Source: Deferribacter desulfuricans SSM1 (GTDB lineage: Bacteria > Chrysiogenota > Deferribacteres > Deferribacterales > Deferribacteraceae). Taken from it: a stretch of 64,000 nucleotides of DNA. How positions within the stretch are numbered: position 1 is the first letter of the stretch; each line of letters opens with the position of its first letter. The translations under genes and the position numbers were made by a program. A model generated the notes under the pieces. That model was not told the DNA's origin, made no database searches, and saw nothing but the letters and a program-made list of their open reading frames with translations. This document shows, in pieces, positions 10,206 through 38,780 of the stretch. Where the stretch lies: the NCBI RefSeq assembly GCF_000010985.1, contig NC_013939.1, positions 62,001 through 126,000 of the forward strand. The letters run 5' to 3'.

Positions 10206-10289
10206 GGTGGCCTCCTTTAATCAAAATAAAACACCATGTCTAATTATATCATTTATTATTTAAGTGTAAATAGAAAAATAAACAGTATT

Positions 10290-35730: not shown

Positions 35731-36084
35731 TTATATTTCAAAATATTTATTAATCCTTTTTAATATTATTTCTGGGTTTTTATTTTTCACAAAATATTCA
35801 TCTGCATAAAGAGATGAGAAATTTCTTTTATAATCTTCGTGGGCTGTTAGTAAAAATACTGGTATTTTTTCGTTTTTCTTTTTTATTTCTTTTAATATGT
35901 CTAATCCGCTTTTTTCTGGCATATTAATATCTAAAAGGATTAAATTTGGTGATTCTTCTCTAAAAATTTTCATCCCTTCAAGTCCATTTTCTGCTTCAAT
36001 TACAACGAAGCCATTTTCTTCTAAAAACTCTTTATAAAAGTTTCTTATATATGGGTCGTCATCAATAATCAGTATCTTCTTCAT
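35731..36084 (-). CDS. Single-domain response regulator (receiver only)
   Basis: A 117-residue receiver: acidic residues D8-D10, phospho-acceptor D52 (LILLDINMPEKSG), T80 (VFLLTAHE) and K100 (EYFVKNKN). There is no output domain. It overlaps the preceding histidine kinase gene by 4 nt (same strand), so the two form a cognate pair. It is the last gene of the RdgC-like/kinase set. Its downstream target is not visible; a second lone receiver of this type sits at 10290-10664. Confidence 0.9.
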   Translation of the reverse strand: MKKILIIDDDPYIRNFYKEFLEENGFVVIEAENGLEGMKIFREESPNLILLDINMPEKSGLDILKEIKKKNEKIPVFLLTAHEDYKRNFSSLYADEYFVKNKNPEIILKRINKYFEI

Positions 36085-37502
36085 AACTCACCTCTTTTAA
36101 AAAATAATTGTATTTTAGTCTGATTGTTGTCAGAGAAAATTTTTATATCACCATCGTGTGCTTCCATGATTTTTTTACATATAGGTAAACCGAGCCCTGT
36201 CCCTGATTCTTTGGTTGTATAAAATGGTGTAAATAGTTTGGCTATATCCGATTTTGGGATTCCACAGCCGTTGTCAATTATTTCTAATATTTTAAAGTTT
36301 GTGTTGGTTTCTAAGTTTATTTTGATGGTATTGTTGGTTTCATTACAAAGAGCATCTAAACTATTGTTAATTAGATTGAGTAATACTTGTAAAATTTTAT
36401 TTTTATCTATTTTAAGTGTTTCATCCCTTTTTATGTTGATTTGTACGTCAACATCTTTTTCTCTTATTTTTTCGTAGAGAATTGTTGTTGCTTCTTCCAC
36501 TAAACTCAAAACATTTACTTCGCTTATATCCAATTTTATTGCCTTAGAGTACAAGAGTAAGTCATTTATAAGGTTTTCCATTCTATTCACTTCATTTTTG
36601 ATTATATTCAGATAACCATTCAATTTTTCATCCTTGTTTAGCTTCAAAACTCTGTTGGTAAATCCGCCAATGGAAACTAAAGGGTTTTTTAATTCATGTG
36701 CTATTGTAGCAGTTAATTTGCCTAAATTTATTAAATTATTATTGTAAAACAGATTGTTTTTAAAAAATTCTAAATCATCAACAGCAAACTTATATCTTTG
36801 AATTAATGATTTTACGGTAAAAGTTATTGAAAGTATTTTGGAATAAATATTCAATAAGTTATTAATATGTGTGATGTTATTATCTTTTGTAGAAATTACA
36901 AGTAATCCTATTGGACCATTTTTTGTATATATTCCGATACCATAATTTTTAAATGGGAAAAGGTGGTTATTTAAAGAGTTGATTTCCTTTATTTGCTCAA
37001 AAAAGATAATATCACTAAATTCACTTCGTTTGTTTAGCTCAACAATCTCTTTTTTGAAATTTATGCTGTCCATAGTTGTTTTATTATTGGAGTAGTAGAT
37101 GAGACCTCTTAATTGCATAAGTTTGTTGTTTAAATAATAAAGTCCTGCGCTGTAGATATCTTGTTCTTCTGTAAGTTTTTTAATTGTATTGTTAAGAGTT
37201 TGCTCTATACTGTCATTATTGATGATATTATTGAGTAAATATGTGATATCGTTGATTGTAATGTTAGTAAAAGTAGTAGCACAACTAAGTAAGATTAATT
37301 TTATCTGTTCTAGTTGCTTATCGTTTAATCTTTTTGTAGATTTGTAAAAAAGTTCTAATTTGTAATTTTCCGCTTCAACTTCATTGAAATAATCTGCTTG
37401 TTCTGAGATTATAATGGACAAGATTAGACTGTCATAAGAAAAAATTTGAATCTTTGTAACGGTTATATCAAATAGTTCTTCAAGCAACTTTATAAGATAC
37501 AT
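36081..37502 (-). CDS. Soluble sensor histidine kinase
   Basis: A 473-residue kinase with no membrane segment. The N-terminal half (about 1-240) looks like a GAF-type sensory region (QDIYSAGLYYLNN, FPFKNYGIGIYTKNGPIGLLVIS). The dimerisation and phosphoacceptor helix has IAHELKNPLVSIGGF with H269. The ATP domain follows with N box NLINNSLDAL, DNGCGIPKSD and GTGLGLPICKKIMEAHDG. It phosphorylates the receiver protein encoded immediately downstream. There is no clear ribosome site before the ATG; a TATAAT 6 bases upstream raises the possibility of leaderless expression. Confidence 0.9.
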   Translation of the reverse strand: MYLIKLLEELFDITVTKIQIFSYDSLILSIIISEQADYFNEVEAENYKLELFYKSTKRLNDKQLEQIKLILLSCATTFTNITINDITYLLNNIINNDSIEQTLNNTIKKLTEEQDIYSAGLYYLNNKLMQLRGLIYYSNNKTTMDSINFKKEIVELNKRSEFSDIIFFEQIKEINSLNNHLFPFKNYGIGIYTKNGPIGLLVISTKDNNITHINNLLNIYSKILSITFTVKSLIQRYKFAVDDLEFFKNNLFYNNNLINLGKLTATIAHELKNPLVSIGGFTNRVLKLNKDEKLNGYLNIIKNEVNRMENLINDLLLYSKAIKLDISEVNVLSLVEEATTILYEKIREKDVDVQINIKRDETLKIDKNKILQVLLNLINNSLDALCNETNNTIKINLETNTNFKILEIIDNGCGIPKSDIAKLFTPFYTTKESGTGLGLPICKKIMEAHDGDIKIFSDNNQTKIQLFFKRGEL

Positions 37503-37507
37503 ATTTA

Positions 37508-37513
37508 ATTATA
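37508..37513 (-). promoter_or_regulatory. Possible -10 element directly before the histidine kinase start
   Basis: On the minus strand TATAAT ends 5 bases before the kinase ATG, with TTTACA 19 bases further up. If active, transcription would begin at or next to the A of the ATG, fitting the missing ribosome site. It is a short AT-rich match, so chance is possible. Confidence 0.3.
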
Positions 37514-37543
37514 GCATAATATTTGAATAAGTTGTAAATAAAA

Positions 37544-38047
37544 TTATAAGTTAATTTTTTTTCTAAATTTTTTTACTTTCTCATACCACTTGTCAGACGT
37601 TCTTATTTTAGCAAAATTTACCAACGTCTTATCAAAAAAAGCATAAACAAGTTTAAGATATAAAATTCTTTCTAATACAGTGTCTGAAATTTCTTCAGTT
37701 TTTGATATAGGCGCTTTTATTCCAGTAATTCTTAATGGTTTGGTTTTTAATGTGGCTTCAATATCTATGCTTTGAGAAGTTAATTTAATATTGAGTTGTG
37801 AGACTTTTTTTGAATTTTTTAATGCGGTAATCAGCTCCTTGTTTTCATTTAGATTTTCACTGATGATGGTGATTTTCTCCTGATAATTGCTGTTTTCTAA
37901 GTAAATTGAATGTGTAATATCATAAACTAAATTGATATCATTTATGCTTAAGGTGTTATTGCCTAAAAAATATTCTATTAAAAGATAAGTTAAATATTCA
38001 TTTTCAAGAAATGATAAATCTTTTTGTGTTGAATTTGAATTGTTCAA
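37544..38047 (-). CDS. RdgC-like protein, C-terminal half as a separate gene
   Basis: A 167-residue protein that matches, in order, the second half of the longer deltaproteobacterial RdgC type: FLENEYLTYLLIEYFLG (compare the FLTWLWF segment), LNIKLTSQSIDIEATLKTKPLRITGIKAP (compare the beta segment before KTPKI), and a final helix ERILYLKLVYAFFDKTLVNFAKIRTSDKW (compare EKLYLIE...FLALRLSPRW). It starts at TTG with its own AGGAGGG seven bases upstream, 15 nt after the N-terminal half ends, so it is translated separately. RdgC binds DNA and tempers RecA in E. coli. Family alignment is from memory of the motif layout. Confidence 0.68.
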   Translation of the reverse strand: MNNSNSTQKDLSFLENEYLTYLLIEYFLGNNTLSINDINLVYDITHSIYLENSNYQEKITIISENLNENKELITALKNSKKVSQLNIKLTSQSIDIEATLKTKPLRITGIKAPISKTEEISDTVLERILYLKLVYAFFDKTLVNFAKIRTSDKWYEKVKKFRKKINL

Positions 38048-38062
38048 AAATACCCTCCTAAT

Positions 38063-38665
38063 TTAAATTGTAGCGGGTAAGCTGTTTAAAAGGTTATCTA
38101 AAACAGAAAGCTCATCGAGATTTCTTTTCAAAATCTCAGCAAAGGTTTCTCGATATATATTGATATCAAAAGCTAATTTAAAGAGATGAGCAGTAGCATC
38201 AAAAATCTTTGAATTTAATTTGCTTATAAAGATAGAGTTGTTGTTGCTATCAAGTATTACTTCAATGAGGGTTGTTGAGGGGGTAGTAGATTGCAAGAGT
38301 GATTTTGTTACATTATTTTTTAAGAAATCTATATCGGATTTTGAAAGTTTTTCTTTGTTTGATTGGAGCATGAGTTCTCTCTTTTTCTTCTCCATCTCTA
38401 TATTAAAAAAGTTTGAATTGACCTTTTTCTCATCTAATCTGATAGTAAAAGTTATATATTCATTGAAGGCTACTTCCGCTTCATCAAAGCTTTCTATTGC
38501 TGGATACAAAAAAGGTACAAATCCATAATTTACAGGCTTTAACTCATCATAAATATTTTCAAAAGAGTATTCTTTTAATTTTTCTGTAATTTCAGTAATT
38601 GAAATGTTTAAATCTTTTTGGTATGAAAGTCTAAAAAATGTTAAGCTTCCTTTTAATAACCCCAT
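38063..38665 (-). CDS. RdgC-like protein, N-terminal half
   Basis: A 200-residue protein resembling the N-terminal half of RdgC (recombination-associated protein): opening LLKGSLTFFRLSYQ, then ITEKLKEYSFENI, YGFVPFL, a strand YITFTIRLDEKKVNSNFF and the helix KRELMLQSNKEKLSKSDIDFLKNNVTKSLL, all in RdgC order. Strand ISKLNSKIFDATAHLFKLAF follows and the chain ends soon after. RdgC forms a DNA-encircling ring that limits RecA filament formation. The ATG follows CCGGAGGATTT. It is divergent from ndk and leads into the C-terminal half, kinase and receiver genes. Confidence 0.72.
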   Translation of the reverse strand: MGLLKGSLTFFRLSYQKDLNISITEITEKLKEYSFENIYDELKPVNYGFVPFLYPAIESFDEAEVAFNEYITFTIRLDEKKVNSNFFNIEMEKKKRELMLQSNKEKLSKSDIDFLKNNVTKSLLQSTTPSTTLIEVILDSNNNSIFISKLNSKIFDATAHLFKLAFDINIYRETFAEILKRNLDELSVLDNLLNSLPATI

Positions 38666-38780
38666 AAATCCTCCGGTTGAAGAAGATATACAAAAATGTT
38701 TTTATATGCAATGAAAAAGTTGATTTTTTCAATAAAGCTGGTATTTATACACTCTCACATAATAAAAGGAGGTAAAGGAT

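Follow-up and report, generated by a model that had tools for sequence, protein, structure and literature searches.

A two-gene form of RdgC in Deferribacter desulfuricans and related bacteria

We find that the domains of RdgC, a ring protein described from Proteobacteria as one polypeptide chain, are carried by two consecutive genes, A and B, in a 64,000-nucleotide stretch of the Deferribacter desulfuricans SSM1 genome (hereafter the window; contig NC_013939.1, positions 62,001 to 126,000); the open-licence papers searched yielded no account of a two-gene RdgC. With its domains placed on two chains, the pair is a variant of RdgC, and it looks like a real, widespread version of the protein and not a damaged gene. 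We consider it probable that A and B together make up one RdgC as its two subunits, that they would form an A2B2 ring limiting RecA, and that the histidine kinase and receiver encoded next to them are independent of this ring.

Gene A, gene B and the domains of RdgC

A preliminary description of this DNA had reported two consecutive genes, the second with its own AGGAGGG and TTG start, and this arrangement holds: gene A (38063..38665) and gene B (37544..38047) follow one another on the minus strand, 15 nt apart. Gene A, assigned as the centre and tip subunit on the basis of Pfam, PHROG and orthologue matches, encodes 200 amino acids from an ATG start preceded by the Shine–Dalgarno sequence GGAGG (38670..38674, minus strand). 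Its residues 8–162 match positions 6–152 of the 298 in the RdgC profile PF04381 (E 1.3e-7) with 31.7 bits against a curated cut-off of 25, the sole RdgC match in the genome, and PHROG 724 matches at E 1.8e-13. Orthologues with 42–58% identity occur in 11 other genomes of the same order. The NCBIfam RdgC models did not reach their cut-off (best 30.5 bits versus 227), a search for related loci with gene A alone returned zero relatives, and a match of gene A to 2OWL in the comparison of profiles with PDB sequences (E 0.06) was discarded, standing at the same level as chance matches to SH3 domains.

Gene B encodes 167 amino acids from a TTG start (38045–38047) that lies 5 nt beyond its AGGAGGG Shine–Dalgarno sequence (38053..38059, minus strand). 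It had no match in Pfam, NCBIfam, PHROGs or the PDB sequences, and a search by fold was therefore needed. By sequence, split B genes from other genomes are relatives of gene B (E 3e-10), and blastp also aligns gene B with two fused genes in their C-terminal halves (E 6e-7 and 5e-5, well above chance). A TTG start with a purine-rich Shine–Dalgarno sequence recurs in 7 of 11 genomes (families f1, f3 and f8), with gene A starting at ATG, and may possibly set the ratio of B to A.

The structure of the gene B product was predicted with AF2 from a 76-row alignment (pLDDT 87, pTM 0.83). The model has helices at residues 12–27, 70–77, 120–149 and 153–166 and an antiparallel sheet with main strands at 38–51, 58–62, 81–90, 95–101 and 106–111 and a short extra strand at 32–35. 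The base domain of RdgC has been described as an antiparallel sheet of five strands with four flanking helices, and its centre domain as carrying a tip of two helices inserted between its strands 4 and 5 (PMC11077077). The five main strands and four helices of the gene B model correspond to the former, which, taken with this description, assigns gene B to the base and gene A to the centre and tip. The preliminary description had proposed structure prediction as a check and allowed that neither half might have an RdgC fold; with the gene B model, Foldseek instead ranked 2owl_B, 2owl_A and 2owy_A, the three RdgC chains held in the PDB, as 1–3 with probability 1.00, followed by unrelated proteins at a probability of 0.54 or less. 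Taken alone, the gene B model reaches just E 7e-3 and TMq 0.46–0.48 against RdgC.

Natural fusions extend the comparison to the whole chain. A and B form a single gene in 26 of the 80 B relatives fetched (the best 80 of at least 538), mostly in Thermodesulfobacteriota, and complete fused copies span 348–409 amino acids counted from the first start; the motif order of the long deltaproteobacterial RdgC type, read from the window in the preliminary description, is thus real. One such fusion of 375 amino acids (L125) was predicted at pLDDT 92 and pTM 0.89, and its model can be aligned with both 2OWL and 2OWY across some 350 columns (TM 0.75–0.79 by target length, E 1.4e-16 to 1.9e-15; 2owl_A, E 1.4e-16 and TMt 0.78; 2owy_A, TMt 0.79) at a sequence identity of 14–18%. 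In the part of this model to which gene A aligns, helices 85–102 and 110–127 are inserted between strands 71–80 and 131–140, so that the centre domain with its two spliced tip helices is seen on the L125 model. The two domains are joined by a linker at about residues 191–212 that is predicted with lower confidence (pLDDT 67–73), and the break of the split form coincides with it, bearing out the earlier placement of the break in the middle linker. The existence of fused homologues argues for a physical association of A and B.

RdgC of E. coli and P. aeruginosa (2OWL and 2OWY; PF04381) thus shares its fold with the A–B fusion along the whole length (TM 0.78–0.79), and its centre, tip and base follow the same order. 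It unites all of these domains in one polypeptide of about 300 residues, whereas the window has two genes, unlinked in four relatives, and the product of B is recognized by no family model. Identity between this RdgC and the fused form is about 14–18%, and ring formation and effects on RecA are putative for A and B. The single-gene homologues of Thermodesulfobacteriota (for example Smithella and Syntrophus; L111, L109 and L125) have the same two parts, alignable in sequence, but fused via a linker and mostly located by recN and an NAD kinase gene. A more distant RdgC-like fold outside Proteobacteria is known from proteins encoded beside the RdgC histones of Bacillus and Halobacteria (PMC11390915), which, unlike A and B, are single chains with extra terminal domains in a histone operon (PMC11390915).

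Distribution of the split and fused forms

The same split, which the preliminary description had proposed to seek in related genomes, was found in several groups. A and B are adjacent in 10 further genomes of the order, from three other families, and the pair also occurs in f10, a family that shares the phylum but not the class. The A–B order is kept in f1, f2, f3 and f8 with the genes 1–26 nt apart, and the pair is absent from families f4–f7 of the same order. Scanning species genomes with a B profile gave at least 538 relatives. Among the 80 best of these and 15 further loci from a domain-wide search (95 loci), we counted 59 split, 29 fused, 4 with B only and 3 with A only. A tree built from 95 concatenated pairs, which is unrooted and has long branches, requires the split or fused state to change about four times.

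Co-occurrence was assessed by applying A and B profiles to the same set of 385 genomes sampled across the domain, the window's relatives included. A was present in 32 and B in 32, with 31 in common (Fisher p 2e-43, the kinship of the genomes being ignored). Several apparent exceptions were rejected: a same-genus genome (G001) seemed to have A without B, but its contig stops 60 nt past A; a seemingly B-only genome (G263) gave a marginal match (E 7.8e-4 within a 1166-aa frame) that was taken as chance; and family f22, a candidate for A alone, has B elsewhere in the same genomes. In the three f22 genomes both genes are intact and lie in different surroundings. Four genomes have A and B unlinked: the genes are separated by 1.79 Mb on one contig in G062 and by 79 kb in G349, and found on separate contigs in G210 and G266. 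Such unlinked, intact copies rule out both gene breakage and a frameshift and indicate that A and B are separate proteins retained as a pair. The two-subunit RdgC of the preliminary description accordingly gains support from the fold, the fused homologues, the 31 of 32 co-occurrences and the four genomes in which the genes are unlinked.

Further variants were seen among the relatives. One genome (G048) has, besides a split pair, a second, single-chain RdgC of the E. coli type (L032 6588–7454; PF04381 E 6e-44) downstream of an ssb-like gene, which looks like an accessory element. The B genes at L105 5001–5987 and L155 5001–5966 carry an additional C-terminal part of about 150 amino acids, and the extended L105 protein matched no family in Pfam. 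A phage family of 181 residues, PHROG 13439, matches gene A only (window 38066–38665, E 2.3e-6), raising the possibility of phage proteins that consist of the RdgC centre domain alone. A tblastn search of phage records with the A and B of L065 gave no match.

The adjoining kinase and receiver

Downstream of gene B on the minus strand lie a soluble histidine kinase gene (36081..37502; HisKA and HATPase_c by Pfam, with orthologues) and, overlapping it by 4 nt, the gene of a lone receiver that is its partner (35731..36084; Pfam Response_reg, E 1.2e-26). PADLOC matches of the receiver were set aside as generic receiver matches. The kinase start is preceded by a putative extended −10 promoter, TGCTATAAT (37508..37516, minus strand), with the ATG 5 nt on and no Shine–Dalgarno sequence, as in leaderless genes. 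The same arrangement, TGNTATAAT followed after 5–6 nt by ATG and lacking a Shine–Dalgarno sequence, marks the kinase start in 11 of 11 genomes with all four genes; within the window, TATAAT 4–7 nt before a start is found for 1 of 57 ORFs, the kinase. One other TGNTATAAT-N4-8-ATG in the window (about 10235–10251, minus strand) precedes none of the 57 longer ORFs. A promoter scan gave matches no commoner than in shuffles, and the call thus rests on conservation across genomes. This promoter likely marks the end of the A–B unit, from which the kinase is probably transcribed separately.

The order A–B–kinase–receiver is shared by 11 genomes of 4 families. Kinase orthologues adjoin A and B in f2, f3 and f8, and the receiver beside A and B is orthologous in f1, f2, f3 and f8 (45–62% identity). 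Across these four families and f6, receiver orthologues score 152–205 bits, with the next best match at 104. Family f6, which has neither A nor B, carries the same kinase and the same receiver (152–162 bits versus at most 104 for other receivers); 5 of 5 f6 loci examined read ppdK–kinase–receiver, A and B being missing from the interval between the first two genes, and the kinase follows a terminator-like hairpin of ppdK. In most f2, f3 and f8 genomes A and B lie exactly between ppdK and the kinase (G016 differs on the ppdK side), and in the window the four genes stand together away from ppdK. Conversely, A and B occur without an adjoining kinase–receiver pair in f10 and, as a rule, in Thermodesulfobacteriota, where kinase or receiver matches are at least one gene away. 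The kinase–receiver pair therefore does not stay with A and B as would be expected of an operon under two-component control: its presence without them in f6, their presence without it elsewhere and the kinase's own promoter together show the modules to be separable, and the pair probably stands outside the RdgC pair despite its adjacency. Of the preliminary picture of a split RdgC in line with a kinase and receiver and possibly under signal control, the gene order stands, the four genes are probably not one transcription unit, and the signal control finds no support.

As a separate observation, the lone receiver and soluble kinase sit after ppdK in f2, f3, f6 and f8, and could represent a ppdK-linked signalling pair. 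The receiver (window 35731–36084, L190–L194) has a strongly conserved LTAxExxKRNFxxLYAxEY motif.

Proposed function and alternative readings

In the proposed mechanism, A would supply the centre domain with its two spliced tip helices, and B would contribute the base domain, in which four helices flank a beta sheet. The base domain pairs two monomers in E. coli RdgC (PMC11077077). A and B would most likely associate as A2B2 to give a DNA-encircling ring, as single-chain RdgC does as a dimer, and this ring would limit the loading of RecA or its strand exchange on DNA. The association of A with B, the ring, DNA binding and the restraint of RecA are what we infer from homology. E. coli RdgC restrains RecA, and loss of rdgC is harmful without priB, an effect partly relieved by lower RecA activity (PMC9713433). 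RecA is present in this genome. Among the relatives, A and B neighbour recN at 19 loci and radC at 17: the fused form lies mostly beside recN and an NAD kinase gene (L097, L150 and others), and many split forms lie beside gatB and radC, those of the Desulfobulbales type preceding them (L141, L108 and others). These neighbours fit a DNA-repair setting; in the window itself, no recombination gene is found next to A and B.

The proteins could instead form an RdgC-fold complex with another job, such as nucleoid structuring, chromosome maintenance or a RexA-like function, a reading that we regard as unlikely. It draws on RdgC-fold relatives in other roles (PMC11077077). Lambda RexA has a two-domain RdgC-like fold and binds DNA non-specifically, but is one chain acting in phage exclusion with RexB (PMC11077077); the kinetochore pair Iml3–Chl4/CENP-L–N is a DNA-binding dimer of RdgC-like fold, but is eukaryotic, has both domains on each chain and is a weak match; CENP-L/N come next after RdgC in the Foldseek list of the L125 fusion model. 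The low sequence identity to E. coli RdgC would also be compatible with another role, as would the presence of RecA and the distribution of RecO, which is found in relatives that have the pair as well as in those that lack it and does not separate the two sets of genomes. Against this, RdgC is by far the best fold match, and recN and radC adjoin the relatives' genes.

That all four genes form one signalling operon, in which the kinase–receiver pair controls a split RdgC, we judge to be very improbable. The identical gene order in 11 genomes of 4 families would suit it, and so would the position of the window's four genes away from ppdK, from which it appears that the block moved together; yet f6 keeps the kinase and receiver at the syntenic ppdK locus without A and B, f10 and Thermodesulfobacteriota have A and B without them, and the leaderless-type promoter precedes the kinase in 11 of 11 genomes. 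We give practically no credence to a local mutation, sequencing error or programmed frameshift of one rdgC. The preliminary description would have taken relatives with a single fused gene as a sign of local mutation, and such relatives do exist, but split loci outnumber fused ones among those fetched (59 versus 29), gene B has a Shine–Dalgarno sequence and a start of its own, different families and phyla share the conserved split, and the unlinked A and B of four genomes refute a local break.

For two subunits of one RdgC, the arrangement bears on how a ring gets onto DNA, a real question for this protein. The split lies exactly between the part that forms the DNA ring and the dimerizing base, and is kept across several phyla; the split state, in which the genes are sometimes unlinked, has apparently arisen or been fused anew about four times, offering a ready system for tests of ring assembly and loading. 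Gene B, without a family model here, gains a place as the base of RdgC. More speculatively, and with much less confidence than we attach to the two subunits themselves, B might be a separable clasp whose association and dissociation open and close the A2B2 ring on circular DNA. If so, ring loading would be a regulated step, which is impossible for a single-chain RdgC.
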